From Chromera velia (taxonomy: Eukaryota > Sar > Chromeraceae), in assembly GCA_018398765.1 (NCBI GenBank), contig JAHBMJ010001737.1, positions 44,585 to 108,584 on the forward strand: a DNA stretch of 64,000 nucleotides, in the 5' to 3' direction. Below the pieces are notes generated by a model. It was not told where the DNA came from. It saw only the letters and a list, made by a program, of their open reading frames with translations, and did not search any database. Position numbers and translations under genes: made by a program. Position 1 is the first letter of the stretch. Each line of letters starts with the position of its first letter. This document shows, piece after piece, positions 341-58,600 of this stretch.

Positions 341-3300
341 CTCCGTCTGGAGGTTTTGGAGGTCCCTGCTGAACTGCACTGCCCTCTCCTCGAGCCCCTG
401 CACGCTGCTCTCTGCCGCGTCCCGCGCAGCCTCAGCCAAGATAACGGCCTTCTTGGCCTCCTCAGCCCTTAGCTCGGCAGCCTCTCGTCCTCTCTGGGCC
501 TCCTCGAGCCTCTCCCTCAGCAACCTGCATTCATTTTGACGCACGCATCAATTGACGCACGCATGGGCCTCCTTGAGCCTCTCCCTCAGCAGCAACCTGC
601 ATGGAATGGCTGGACTCATTATTCCTTCCGTCAATTGACGCACGCATGGATGGACTCATTATTCCTTCCGTCAATTGACGCACGCATGGATGGACTCATT
701 ATTCCTTCCGTCAATTGACGCACGCATGGATGGACTCATTATTCCTTCTGTTAATTGACGCACGCATGGATGGACTCATTATTCCTTCCGTTAATTGACG
801 CACGCATGGATGGACTCATTATTCCTTCCGTCAATTGACGCACGCATGGATGGACTCATTATTCCTTCTGTTAATTGACGCACGCATGGATGGACTCATT
901 ATTCCTTCCGTTCATCGATAATCACCTCGACCCCCACTGACAGACATTCTATGAATATGGCACGCACGCGTGGTAATTGACGCACGCATGATGCACGATC
1001 TATCTTACATCATGATGCATCTGTGCTTCTTTTTCGATCTTCAAGAATCCTGTGCTTCCTTCCTTCCTCTCTCTACCTGCAGGAAGGAGAGGAGAGACAT
1101 GCCCGCTGCTCTACACATAGGTCGGGCTAGAAGAAAAGAAAACACAAAAATGGAGTTCACGAAAGGGGGGATGCGCTCTTAAGAGAAAGAGTTGGGAAAT
1201 TCATGAGGTGAGTGCCTCGACAGCCATGCACAAAGAGAAGGTGAGTGCCTCGACTGACGCTTCAGAGGAAGCCCCCCCTCCTCTACTGCCTCCAGAGCGC
1301 TCCTGCTGTGCAACCTTGAGGGCCTCCTCCAGATTCCGTACCCTGACAGGGAGGGGGGGGNGGGGGGGGGGGGGGAGGGTGTTATGAAAGAAACAAGACA
1401 GAGAAGAGTCTGAAAGTGTCCTCAAGAGCTCAGAAGGGAAACAACCAAAGAAGACACCGCGACCGCGTGTCACTTGCGACCGAACTGGATTCCGTTTTTT
1501 TGCATCAAGCTGGTCCCTCTCCTCATATTCTGTCTGCAAACGTTGCTGCGTCTCAAACAAGAGAAAAAGTGTCTGACAACAATACTCCCCCCATCACCCC
1601 CCAGCTGACTTCTCCTCAGCCAGGTCCCTCTTTTCGCACTCTGCCCTCATGTCGTCCTCCAAAGAACTTCTCCTCCAATAATCCAAAATAATCCAAAATA
1701 ATTCAAAACAATTCAAAACAATTCAAAATAACTGACTTCTCCTCAGCCATGTCCCTCTTTTCGCACTCTGCCCTCATGTCGTGCTCCAAAGAACGCAACG
1801 AGGACGCGTGACGCCTCTCTTGCTCGGATGCCGCCGCACGGGCTGCCTCTGCGGCAACGAGACGTGCCTGCATGTACAGAATTTTTGGATTCATTTATGT
1901 TTGTACAGAATATATGTATACAGACAGACAGAGAGAAGGGCTGCCTCTGCAGCAACGAGACATGCCTGCAGACAGACACGAAGAGAACTGGAAAGAAACA
2001 CAGCGAAGAAATCGAGGTCTTTCAAAAGCAACACTGCAAGGAAATGCAAATCCTCTCAAAAAAGAAAAAGCAAAAGTGAAGGTTCGTTGACGAAAGAGGA
2101 AGAAAACCCGGGTGGCTTTTGCAAAAACGCAACAAATAAAAAGCCGCACTTAGGGTTCCTGAACACAAACAAGTCTTCTTTTCTTGCTGACCTCCAGCCG
2201 TCCGTTCTCGTGCTCGAACTCCCTGAGCAACTCCACTTCCTCGCACTTGCTGCAGAAAGAACCAGAAAAAGGAATTCTTGTTACAGCAAACGGAGAACAC
2301 ACCAACAGACAAACAAATGAGTGGTCAAAGACCTCCGCATCCTCCTCTCTGCCATTTTCCTTAGCCCCCCCCCCTCTTCAAGTGTTTCCTTGCGAGGGAA
2401 AAGCCGACAGACAGAAAGACAGACAGACAGATGGACCGAAGGAGAGACAGCTTTTCCCTTCCCTTCTCTTCGTGATACAAGAAACTTTGTTGGTTGTTGA
2501 AACTTCGATACAGGGGGTCCTCTTGGCCCTTCGACCGCAACTGCTTGTGCACATGGGAACCTTCATCGCCTCTCTGAACATTTTCTCCGGCCGTCCACCC
2601 TTTCCTTCTCAGATCGCCCCCTTCCCCATTCTTCCCTCAGCCCTCCTCTCTTTTCAGATCGCCCCCTTCCCCCTCCCTTCTTCCCTCAGCCCTCCTCTCT
2701 TTTCAGATCGCCCCCTTCCCCCTCCCTTCTTCCCTCAGCCCTCCTCTCTTTTCAGATCGCCCCCTTCCCCATTCTTCCCTCAGCCCTCCTCTCTTTTCGG
2801 CAGGCAATCTGAATTTCGTCTAGAGAGCGTCTCTGCATGCCGTCACCCTCTTCCTTCCACATAATTCTCTATTCGCTCCGAGCGAACAAAACAGAAAGAG
2901 AGAGAGACACACACATCTAACAACGTACAAAGCCTGCCTGACTTTTTGAGTTGCGCCTCCAATTCTTCCACGAAGGCCTTCAATTTCCTTTCCTTGTCCT
3001 TGTCCTTCTCTTTCTCACCCCCTCCACCAGAGAACGAAGCGGCTGCAGAGGGAACCTATAGAGACAGACAGACACACACACACACACATATATATTTTAT
3101 TCATACATACAGACATACATACACACATACGTACAGAGAACGAAGCGGCTGCAGAGGGAACCTGTAGAGACAGACAGACACACACACACACATATATATA
3201 TTTTATTAATACATACATACAGACATACATACACACATACGTACAGAGAACGAAGAGGCTGCAGAGGGAACCTATAGAGACAGACAGACACACACACACA

Positions 3301-55600: not shown

Positions 55601-58600
55601 CTGCGACCACCCCCCTGCTGCTGGAGGCCCTGCATACCCCCCCCAGGACCGGTACCGCTGCTGAGGCCGAGGCCCCCATACCCCCCGGCCCCCGGACCAC
55701 CGTGGGAGTGGCCAGCCGTCATACCACCGGGGTTTCCGGAGCTGCCGTTGACTGCCCCTCCAGCATTCCCGGCGGCACCCCCCCCGGCGGTCCCGTCAAA
55801 GGCCCCGCCTGCACCGGTGCCGTTGCCGAACTGGCCGCCCCCCCCCAGGCCAAACCAGGGCTGCATCGGGCCCCCACTCATCTGGGAGGGGTCCATGCTC
55901 GACCCGTCCATCGCGTTGCCGGGGAAGCCGCCGGGGAAGAAGGGGGCGGGGTAGCCGCCAGGGCCCATCTGGGACATCTGCACACACACACACACACACA
56001 CACACACACACAGAGACACACACACACACACACACACACACACGCACGCACACACACACACACACACACACACACACACAGAGAGAGAGAGAGAGAGAGA
56101 GACAAGACAGTGCAAGGCAACATGCAGTCAACGAAGTGAAAGAAATCAGACGAACGGATGAAGAAGAACAAAAAAGACACAAATCGACTTTGCACAGGCA
56201 AAAAAAACAGGACCAGAATGAAGAAATTCGGAAAAGTTGGTGGGGCCAAAAAGAAGAGAAGAGGCAGAACAACAAGACAGAAGAGAAAAAAATGGCCACC
56301 CGAAACAGAAAGAAGACCCATTTTCTCTTTTTTCACAACTCTCTGTTTTGGATGGAGACTCAACCAATATTGCAGTCTCAGAGAACCCACCAGGGCCCTC
56401 CCCTACTCCCTCATGCCTTTAATAAAATAAAAAAAAAAATTGCAGTCTCAGAGAACCCACCAGGGCCCTCCCCTCCTCCCTCATGCCCTCACTGACTGAC
56501 CATGTTGCTAGGGAAGCCCATCATGTTGTACGGAGGGTACCCGTTCCATCCTGCCATCGGGTTGCCCGCCATGCCCATCGCCCACGCCTGCTGCATCGGG
56601 TGCATGAAGTTCATGCCGCCACCGGCGCCGCCCCCTGCATTCGCCCCCCCTTGTTGCTGGGGATTGGTGGAAGAGTTCGCCCCCCCGCCCTGCGTGTTGC
56701 CTCCTGTGGGGGGGGAGGCAGGCTGCATGCCTGCCTGTTGCTGGGACTGGCCCCCGGGCTGATGCTTAAGCATGGGGTCCGGGGTGGCCTCTGGCTGGTT
56801 CTGGTGGTGCAGCTGCTGCTTGGACTGATGCTGTGATTGCTGCTGGGATGCACGGGAGTAATGAGTGTAGTCCGACTGCGGATTGGCGGGCTGGCCCCCC
56901 CACCTCTTGTCAGAGGAGGTCTGCACGTTGTGCGAGTGCGAAGGGGGGGCAGCGGACTGCTGCTGTTGGACAGACTGCATAGCAGGGACAGAGAGGACCT
57001 TCGCATTGTCGGAGGGAGTCGGTCTGAGGGGGGGCTGAGCAGCAGGTGGGACGGGTTGCTGCTGAGAGAGAGAGCTGTGCTGCTGGTGGGGAGGAAGGGA
57101 AGCGGGAGGCTGGGGTGTTGAGTGGACTCCCTCGTGTCCCTTTGTGAGGGCCTCCTGCAATGCTGCGGCGGCGCCTGAACCGTCCAGGTCGGCACCGGCT
57201 GCAGCGGTTTGGTAGGAAGAGGCAGAGACGAGAGGCTGAGATGCGGTCTGCATTGGTGCGTGTGTCTGTGGGGGGGGAGGCGGGGAGGCTGTTCTTCTCT
57301 CGTCCGGAGAGACGGCAGGAGCAGTGAGACCAGTGGAAGGAAAATTGGCCTGGGGCTTCTGAGGCCGGGGGTGATTTGAAGACGACTGAGGATCGTACAG
57401 TCTGTTTTGGCTGGGGTCTGCGAGTGTCTGTTGGACCACCGGGGACGGCACAGGGGGTTGGGGTTGCTGCATAGGGATTTCTGCAGGTGGTGCCGGTTTG
57501 GGTTGGGGCGCAGGAGCAGGAGGCGCGACGGGAACGCCAAAGAAAACGCCCTCGTCATCGTCGTCTTCGTCGGCTGCGTCGATGCGGAGACCCTTGTTGC
57601 TCTTGACAACGAAGGGTTGTGCGGGAGCACGGGGGGCGACCTGCTGGGGCTTTCTCTCGGCAAGGGGGGGTGAGGGGGTGCCGGCAGTTGGCATGACGTG
57701 ACGCGGGGGGGGAGGGGAGACTGCTGCCTCCATTGGTTCAGAGGGCATAGGAGCAGCAGGGGGTGCGGGTGTGTGCTGAGAGTGCACGTCTGCAGGCTCT
57801 TCGTCTTCTTCTTCCTCTAGTTCTTCCTGAGGCACGCCCCCGTCTCCTCTAGGGTCTGTCTGCTCTTCAGGAATGGCATCCTCGTGGTCGTCTTCCTCTG
57901 CCTCTCCGGGACCTGCCGTCTCCTCATCGGGCCCTGCGGCCACAGGGTGACCCCACTCATCCGTCTCGTCTCCTGCCTCGGGAGAAACTTCTGCAACAAC
58001 GTGAACACCACCCTCGTCCTCCTGGGGAGATTTGGGACCGCCTCTGGCCCGGGCTGCCCATGTGCCTTCAGGGGAGGGGTGCAGCTCTGCTTCTGCTGTG
58101 GTGGAAGTCGTGATAACTTGCACGGACTGGGAAAGGGCGTTGGTGTTTTCGTCTGAGACTGCGGTGGCGCCGCCTTGCTTGGCGGGGCTGCCCTTGGGTC
58201 CTTTGGGTCCGTCTTTCTTCTTCAAGGGCGCCGCCACAACGGTTTTGGGAACACCGTCAACAAAATCCTGTGAGATGCCCGAAGTCGCGGGCTCAGTGTG
58301 GACAACGAGGGGCTTTCCCCACTTGCTGCCTTCAATCAACTTGATAGGAGGCTTGGGCTTTGAAATGACTGTCGGCTGTGCCTGCTGTTGGTAGCCCCCG
58401 TGGCCGTATGGGCCTCCGGACTGCTGCTGGTCATACCCCCCACCGCCAGGGGTGTCCACTTCAGGGAGGCCAGTGCCCTCGCGGGGGGGCTCTCCGTCTC
58501 CTCTGCCACCACGGTCACCCCAACCACCGCCACGGCCCCGCCCACGTCCCCTTCCATAACCCCCACCCCCGAACTTGTTGTCCCTGTCACCTCCTTCCTG

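Follow-up and report, generated by a model that had tools for sequence, protein, structure and literature searches.

In this study, we asked which process has repeatedly doubled short stretches of host DNA around small inserts along a 64,000-nucleotide (nt) stretch of the Chromera velia genome (contig JAHBMJ010001737.1, positions 44,585 to 108,584), which we refer to at its full length as the window. A sequence-only reading of the window had listed ten such sites and proposed a recurrent insertion with duplication. We find that many of the inserts are one dispersed palindromic family, which that reading had overlooked; the usual member is an inverted pair of a 36-nt arm, S (TGCATTTACTTTCATACAGAATTCTTTTTCAGGGAGCGC), set between two long, directly repeated copies of host DNA. 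Such inserts touch two open questions, namely the origin of new intron sequence and the making of long variable target duplications.

Direct repeats around short inserts in the window

The doubling was present at all ten sites of the earlier list when we re-examined them, with inserts of 21-74 base pairs (bp) between the repeats. At nine of the ten the repeats are ungapped (28-63 bp, identity 31/34 to 35/35), and the remaining site, 46914-47047, is real but gapped. An independent scan of the window added five clear single sites that the sequence-only reading had passed over, together with one weaker site. All sixteen are given below.

495..591, unstranded: direct repeat of 28 bp (27 identical) around a 41-bp insert
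1605..1794, unstranded: direct repeat of 63 bp (61 identical) around a 64-bp AT-rich non-S insert
1840..1970, unstranded: direct repeat of 33 bp (31 identical) around a 65-bp insert
6208..6343, unstranded: weaker direct repeat of 27 bp (25 identical) around an 82-bp non-S insert
27525..27651, unstranded: direct repeat of 34 bp (31 identical) with a donor-like start, GTGAGT, around a 59-bp S insert
33586..33711, unstranded: direct repeat of 50 bp around a 26-bp non-S insert
34394..34477, unstranded: direct repeat of 29 bp, with an acceptor-like CTAG/AA within it by eye, around a 26-bp non-S insert
34705..34896, unstranded: direct repeat of 59 bp (57 identical) around an S insert of 74 bp that holds several arm pieces
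36882..37012, unstranded: direct repeat of 44 bp (43 identical) around a 43-bp non-S insert
37893..38034, unstranded: direct repeat of 35 bp, identical, around a 72-bp AT-rich non-S insert
40252..40395, unstranded: direct repeat of 37 bp (36 identical) around a 70-bp S insert
43196..43337, unstranded: direct repeat of 34 bp, identical, around a 74-bp insert with an S start (TACTTTCATACA) followed by (CATA)n
45695..45797, unstranded: direct repeat of 41 bp around a 21-bp non-S insert
46255..46376, unstranded: direct repeat of 38 bp around a 46-bp non-S insert
46915..47047, unstranded: gapped direct repeat (~30 versus 27 bp) around a 73-bp S insert with both arms
56369..56487, unstranded: direct repeat of 49 bp (48 identical) around a 21-bp AT-rich non-S insert

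By eye, pieces of S (TTTCATACAGAATTC or its complement, some of them diverged) are common to six window inserts. Inspection of the same kind showed that the insert at 495..591 contains TGCATTCATTTT, which resembles outer S, followed by sequence of a neighbouring 40-bp minisatellite, that the insert at 1840..1970 holds diverged S-like pieces (TACAGAATT) missed by our automatic S rule, and that the repeat at 37893..38034 carries a minus-strand donor-like site, CTCACC. The insert at 36882..37012 ends in a partial third copy of its repeat, and at the gapped site, 46915..47047, the longest exact run at one offset is 16 bp.

Repeat pairs of this kind are not explained by chance, since 260 kb of sequence, made up of the window and 20 loci selected by motif, contained 56 pairs spaced 12-130 bp apart (a few low-complexity or tandem cases included) and none after an order-3 Markov shuffle. 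An alignment score of at least 16, which we used to call repeats around motif sites elsewhere, was reached at 4.9% of the 1,482 control positions placed in random regions and at 8.0% of the 1,175 placed clear of the motif. An arbitrary 35-kb sample of the genome held 2 repeat-flanked pairs, neither with an S insert, and the sparseness of pairs there indicates that the window is richer in them than the genome average.

Dispersal and anatomy of the S family

The genome searched was the 177.8-Mb assembly that holds the window (4,040 contigs). With at most one mismatch, TTTCATACAGAATTC matched 934 times in the forward and 991 times in the reverse orientation, 1,925 matches in total, compared with 3 + 3 = 6 for the reversed pattern as a control; scaling from 109 motif matches in 67 loci of the first sample to 1,925 gives an estimate of ~1,180 S loci. 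The first sample consisted of 60 loci covering 84 of the 100 places listed from the motif search, and the 16 places omitted, on C90 (37534-38046), C108, C164, C200 and C201, show array-like even spacing. A second sample of 20 loci came from a different pattern, and both samples are the top of their match lists, not random draws.

Direct repeats scoring at least 16 surround 81 of the 87 motif clusters in the 60 loci, where many clusters are array neighbours, and 53 of the 59 non-array clusters with the window included. The six clusters that gave no qualifying repeats were L010, L040, L050, L057, L066 and L068; by eye, the repeats of L066 are diverged, L068 abuts a gap of undetermined bases (N), and L050 and L057 resemble two copies of one segment. 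In the second sample 17 of the 20 loci had repeats at this score and the other three scored 13-14. L076, which has five arms, and L086, L087 and L088 (score 13-14) were dropped, leaving a pooled set of 69 inserts (53 + 16). As a separate observation, L050 (C126) and L057 (C146) appear to be opposite-strand copies of one segment, sharing one S remnant and lacking clear long repeats.

Among the 53 repeat pairs, repeat length has a median of 42 bp (5th-95th percentile 20-60, range 16-99, where 99 is an array and the next value is 68), and the inserts measure 18-96 bp with a median of 68 bp. The median identity of the repeats is 96.4%, and 13 of the 53 pairs are perfect. It could be supposed that the whole pattern is an artefact of assembly or library preparation, given that the published genome is a short-read assembly of repeat-rich DNA (Chromera velia CCMP2878, 193.66 Mb in 5,953 scaffolds with many low-complexity regions; PMC4501334). 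Repeat copies diverged to this degree are unlike the product of an artefact, and two different patterns recover the same anatomy, so that we find this explanation scarcely credible.

The inner end of S is one half of a symmetric AGCGCT. Terminal inverted repeats, with an arm alignment of at least 14 positions, were found in 45 of the 69 pooled inserts, and in 8 of those 45 the arms overlap centrally. Two adjacent arm positions vary across inserts (AC, TC, AT, GC or GT); 28 of 43 inserts carry the same dinucleotide in both arms, compared with 9.8 after permutation (maximum 19 in 10,000). In 26 of the 69 inserts it was not possible to anchor both arms; L077 and L085 are single-armed, and L019, L055 and L076 contain three to five arms. 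Neither a poly-A nor a repeat tail was seen in the inserts, most of which are armed at both ends, and beyond the arms their interiors have little in common (non-consensus 16-mers shared between inserts number 50 and come from few pairs). At three places, L059:225-368, L024:4871-5013 and L012:5151-5272, the insert, read by eye, seems to include a stretch of its flanking repeat in inverted form, a product that could be expected from fold-back synthesis using host DNA.

Junctions, centres and a proposed mechanism

The outer ends of the inserts are ragged. Measured outward from TTTCATACAG, the boundary between repeat and arm falls at ~3 to >20 bases, with maxima at 5 and 9, and conservation declines gradually; at the outer junctions of 112 arms, filler is present in 32, and another 30 fit flush to within one base. 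Exact microhomology of at least 3 nt to the missing outer arm was present at 17 of 77 junctions (22%), compared with 3% within repeats. TGCA occurs in 35 of the 69 repeats, where local flanks predict 17.3 and random regions 15.4, a count above all 1,000 draws of each, and 23 of its 40 occurrences lie at most 6 bp from a repeat end. CATG is likewise enriched (25 versus 11.8) and overlaps TGCA within TGCATG, and the remaining palindromic tetramers show much weaker enrichment than these two.

The centres, where the two arms meet, differ from insert to insert. In 39 two-armed inserts we found filler at 36 centres (median 20 bp), a flush join at 1 and overlap at 2. Pieces of S lie within 20 of the 28 central fillers of at least 8 bp, microsatellite pieces occur in fillers also, and the lengths of the two arms within an insert are not positively correlated (-0.23). 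A complete palindromic centre was found at three places in the genome, two of them mismatch-free and the third with two mismatches, and a join of the arms through GAATTC was found 21 times, 9 of these being exact. Among inserts whose two repeats (20 bp or longer) are identical, 15 in all and presumed to be the youngest, centres already differ from one insert to the next, with one piece common to L014 and L083; the scrambling of the centres is therefore not slow decay.

To account for these features we propose a recurrent staggered-nick process in which S is copied onto both 3' ends and the ends are then joined in an error-prone manner, an account to which we give about an even chance of being right. 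Because the duplications are long and variable, the two opposite nicks would lie 16-70 bp apart. Host DNA would be cut on opposite strands at roughly this spacing (~16-70 bp), at least sometimes in genes, and the staggered piece, R, would be kept on both sides, which the flanking repeats suggest. At both free host 3' ends a template of ~36-40 nt, S, would be copied, beginning at a TGCA-like microhomology of a few bases and halting at varying depth. Both ends would tend to copy the same S variant, making the insert an inverted repeat, and error-prone end joining with template jumps would then give each site its own centre; that centres differ is observed, and the route to them is part of the proposal. 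In its most economical form, the chemistry would be target-primed reverse transcription with a small RNA copied at each of the two nicks, a symmetrical version of "twin priming"; a repair polymerase copying a DNA hairpin would be an alternative. A candidate template RNA would be 36-45 nt long and end in ...GUAUGAAAGUAAAUGCA(UGCA). Copying of one template at both ends, with microhomology priming and error-prone joining, would provide a joint account of the matching arms, the ragged ends, TGCA in the repeats, the mostly unique centres and the inserts with one or several arms.

Whether this amounts to a separate insertion system, in which a ~40-nt RNA is reverse-transcribed from both of two widely staggered nicks, often in genes, and each event makes its own palindrome and centre and a 20-60-bp duplication, is a more tentative matter, and we put it forward as a possibility that is less likely than not. 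If true, a small-RNA insertion system would have built >1,000 inserts in one alveolate genome, lengthening introns at exon edges and seeding minisatellites. Reverse transcriptases are plentiful in the genome (RVT_1, PF00078: 1,759 first-look candidates, of which 150 scored over the cut-off), with no tie to S, and an Rfam search of the window at gathering thresholds gave no match.

Several observations weigh against copying of S at staggered nicks as the source of the inserts. Simple annealing of two copies is not seen, overlap being confined to the two centres mentioned. L072 and L083 have a common centre, L016 has part of it and L014 another piece, a pattern as copying of whole inserts would give. 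Perfect palindromes could have been concealed by short-read assembly. The variant dinucleotide is discordant between the arms in 15 of the 43 inserts, and mismatches are more frequent in arms (8.0%) than in repeats (4.0%; alignment settings differ), from which it follows that the arms were maybe not identical at birth. No strong base preference was found at the nick sites; A at +1 alone stands out, and part of that signal follows from the requirement that a repeat stop at the first base distinguishing host from element. Our searches identified no template RNA gene or source copy of S and no enzyme linked to S, and a permissive Rfam search of eight loci returned 37 matches, mostly to microRNA-type hairpin models, all below the cut-off. 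Finally, duplications also arise without an S template: by eye, S is absent from 9 of the 16 single window inserts, and of the 15 repeat pairs in 154 kb of fetched loci lying >700 bp from exact motif sites, 6 are S-like and 9 lack S. The automatic rule called 5 of 15 window pairs S-like, two of those five being arrays and the non-S pair at 59136 being tandem; the sites at 495, 6208, 43196 and 46915 failed its filter, and the count made by eye is therefore preferred.

Given the non-S inserts, a more general staggered-break process also acts. The broader claim would be that staggered breaks repaired with filler, by patch-mediated repair and tandem duplication, explain everything, S being merely abundant and hence often captured. 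The non-S majority of single window inserts has the same anatomy as the S inserts, fillers contain S pieces or microsatellite, tandem duplications form in mouse and human cells at breaks that leave 3' overhangs (PMC8355091), and staggered breaks have been invoked for new Daphnia introns (PMC4202315). What such repair does not supply is the recurrence of a single 36-nt sequence at some thousand loci, often as inverted pairs of matching variant, which needs a specific source, and we judge general repair unlikely as the full explanation. The S process and general filler repair may share the same breaks.

A DNA transposon resembling a miniature inverted-repeat transposable element (MITE) would explain S from another side, with 36-bp inverted repeats, long variable duplications like those of the bacterial elements IS1634 and IS1549, and a centre that decays after insertion. 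The inverted-repeat arms, their concordant variants, the half-palindromic S with its symmetric centre AGCGCT, and the few inserts with a common centre or part of one all fit such an element, and repeats of 8-514 bp are documented for IS1634 and IS1549 (PMC2266710). The outer ends do not fit it well, being ragged, with filler at 32 of 112 arms and microhomology at the host junctions, and neither do the one-armed inserts, the interiors that copies do not share, or the centres that are already unlike in the 15 inserts with identical repeats. Its duplications would have to span 16-99 bp, neither short nor fixed, and no long S-bounded element was present in the places read, where no systematic search was made. 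We regard a MITE-like origin as rather improbable.

Exon edges, known systems and arrays

The sequence-only reading also held that the duplications leave one intact copy of the exon edge and associate with splice sites. The first part holds in two cases, L051 on the donor side and L044 on the acceptor side, in both of which the repeat copy adjoining the exon body is intact. In L051 the repeat comprises 23 bases of the end of a kinase-like exon (ADFGLSI) and a donor-like site, GTGAGC; its upstream copy runs on from the HRDIKAAN part of the domain (Pkinase, E 1.5e-13), and alignments with MAP4K1 and GCN2 pass through that copy. Kinase domains carry this motif once each, and the second, downstream ADFGLSI copy is therefore derived. 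In L044 the repeat comprises an acceptor-like site, CCTGCAG, and an exon start encoding VNDYLQFP, and its downstream copy runs into a ubiquitin-protease domain (UCH, E 2.9e-10) that aligns with USP34 and USP9X (FAF-X). An EGF-domain exon at L021 shows the same arrangement. Among ten translated stretches searched with Pfam, five gave matches above the cut-off, one (WD40-type, L025) fell below it and four had no match.

These protein alignments indicate that the ancestor had a single copy at L051 and at L044. Insertion with duplication, as first proposed, is thus supported by two findings, namely that a shared sequence family lies between the repeats and that two conserved protein domains point to one ancestral copy. 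In the genome itself, 32 joined-flank queries found no empty site; at E 1e-12 they returned their own 64 half-matches alone, which means that these places have no close paralogue and that the query is uninformative on empty sites.

The association with splice sites is modest, and this part of the earlier observation is weaker than the part concerning the repeats. Counting the first repeat copy alone against local flanks, donor-like sites occur in 7 of 69 repeats (2.7 expected, P 0.02) and acceptor-like sites, under a looser rule than in the strict count, in 24 of 69 (12.5 expected, P 0.003). Under strict rules, 6 of 53 repeats held a donor-like site (2.3 expected) and 11 of 53 an acceptor-like one (2.9 expected); these figures favour enrichment, since a match in either copy was compared with a one-copy expectation from all background. 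The acceptor signal is maybe partly a preference for TGCA; the roughly two-fold enrichment in splice-like sites may reflect survival of exon-edge insertions, a TGCA(G) preference, or both. A genic setting is seen through Pfam for a few S inserts, and for others the splice-like sites counted in the repeats may point to one. Judging from the structure in two genes, a duplication across an exon edge would leave one edge and its splice site intact, so that the insertion could be tolerated and the intron would become longer. Duplicated units are unbiased in length with respect to coding frame (remainder 0, 1 and 2 in 25, 20 and 24 of 69), as expected if they are not translated.

Long target duplications as such are already known. 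A bacterial study titled 'Insertion with long target duplication' reportedly exists, and Vaughn and Bennetzen 2014 and Schiml 2016 are said to have described tandem duplications from staggered breaks. The comparisons that follow draw on the available portions of the papers cited, and none of the known mobile elements considered is a good match for the S inserts. The statement in the sequence-only reading that transposases make short duplications of fixed length has exceptions in IS1634 and IS1549 (PMC2266710) and in some human HERV-K insertions (PMC5488345). Like S inserts, IS1634 and IS1549 have long variable direct repeats (8-514 bp), stated to be without a mechanistic model, but these elements measure 1.5-2 kb and carry a transposase gene, whereas S inserts measure 18-96 bp (PMC2266710). 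Duplications of 111 and 250 bp flank some HERV-K insertions (PMC5488345), and repeats of >30 bp flank transposed genes in Arabidopsis (PMC2869330); in both cases, as with S, inserts lie between long host direct repeats, yet these are rare single insertions or whole genes for which rearrangement has also been proposed, with no short palindromic family.

Introners are among the closest parallels. Those of Amoebophrya, also in Alveolata, are themselves introns, with direct repeats of 3-5 nt across exon/intron boundaries; they resemble the S family in being scattered through an alveolate genome in many copies, in having inverted repeats able to form hairpins and in their flanking direct repeats, and their study likewise argues against general mobilisation by transposase (PMC7789003). 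The Chromera repeats differ in measuring 16-70 bp and in being able to include exon edges. Introners of algae and other eukaryotes similarly invade genes, in some cases with inverted repeats and target duplications that partly supply the splice sites, but their duplications measure 3-9 bp in earlier families and 4-8 bp in a figure legend (PMC9860276). Chromera has 0 mentions in the main text of that survey.

Staggered-break repair resembles the S inserts in its variable direct repeats and varied filler and differs in that S recurs as a specific sequence. Mammalian breaks with 43-bp 3' overhangs yield tandem duplications ascribed, as here, to distant opposite nicks, with no recurring inserted family (PMC8355091). 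New Daphnia introns share staggered breaks and exon-edge direct repeats, theirs being 4-12 bp long (PMC4202315), and direct repeats near splice sites of 213 introns measure 4-30 bp (mean 11.4; PMC11782384), shorter than those flanking S; neither study has a common insert family. Retroposition of long and short interspersed elements (LINEs and SINEs) is also similar, with variable target duplications, microhomology at the priming site and reverse transcriptase in the genome. Entamoeba SINE1, with elements of ~450-575 bp and duplications mostly of 6-24 bp (PMC2996970), contrasts with the two short inverted arms and missing tail of S. The main-text passages of the Chromera genome paper mention repeats and transposable elements and not the S family (PMC4501334), and among the open-licence literature matches listed no description of S-type inserts in Chromera was found. 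With target, microhomology and joint preserved at about a thousand events of various ages in one genome, nick spacing, template and joining become open to study, and insertion is linked with exon edges as well as with how minisatellites arise.

Two arrays in the window bear on this last link.

38839..39736, unstranded: tandem array with a unit of ~59 bp that contains an outer part of S (TGCATTTACTTTCATACAGA)
53264..53757, unstranded: tandem array with an 87-92-bp unit made up of an S arm (GAATTCTGTATGAAAGCAAATGC), ~30 bp of host sequence and a (CATA)n filler

The S-bearing minisatellites of the window suggest that repeat-insert-repeat units grow into arrays, and under the staggered-nick account such units may expand in this way. 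Arrays of the same unit plan could also be taken in the opposite sense, with every site being a two-copy tandem repeat born as a minisatellite whose units have drifted, and no insertion at all. The middle piece is common to unrelated loci and the repeats are not, and conserved proteins mark the host part as single-copy, which makes this a very improbable explanation. Elsewhere in the genome, S-containing arrays were seen at L009:4572-4974, L013:4795-5130, L015:4874-5048, L036 and L067. A run of N, an assembly gap, occupies 39737-39787 at the end of an S-bearing minisatellite in the window.

Other features of the window include neighbouring open frames on the plus strand at 10168-14587, which match Helitron_like_N (E 1.6e-32, 11878-12684) and a PIF1 helicase (E 7.7e-40, 13883-14584). 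At 20339-20641 a 50-bp tandem repeat lies in an open frame, where a weak match to the helicase-type domain AAA_12 falls below the cut-off.

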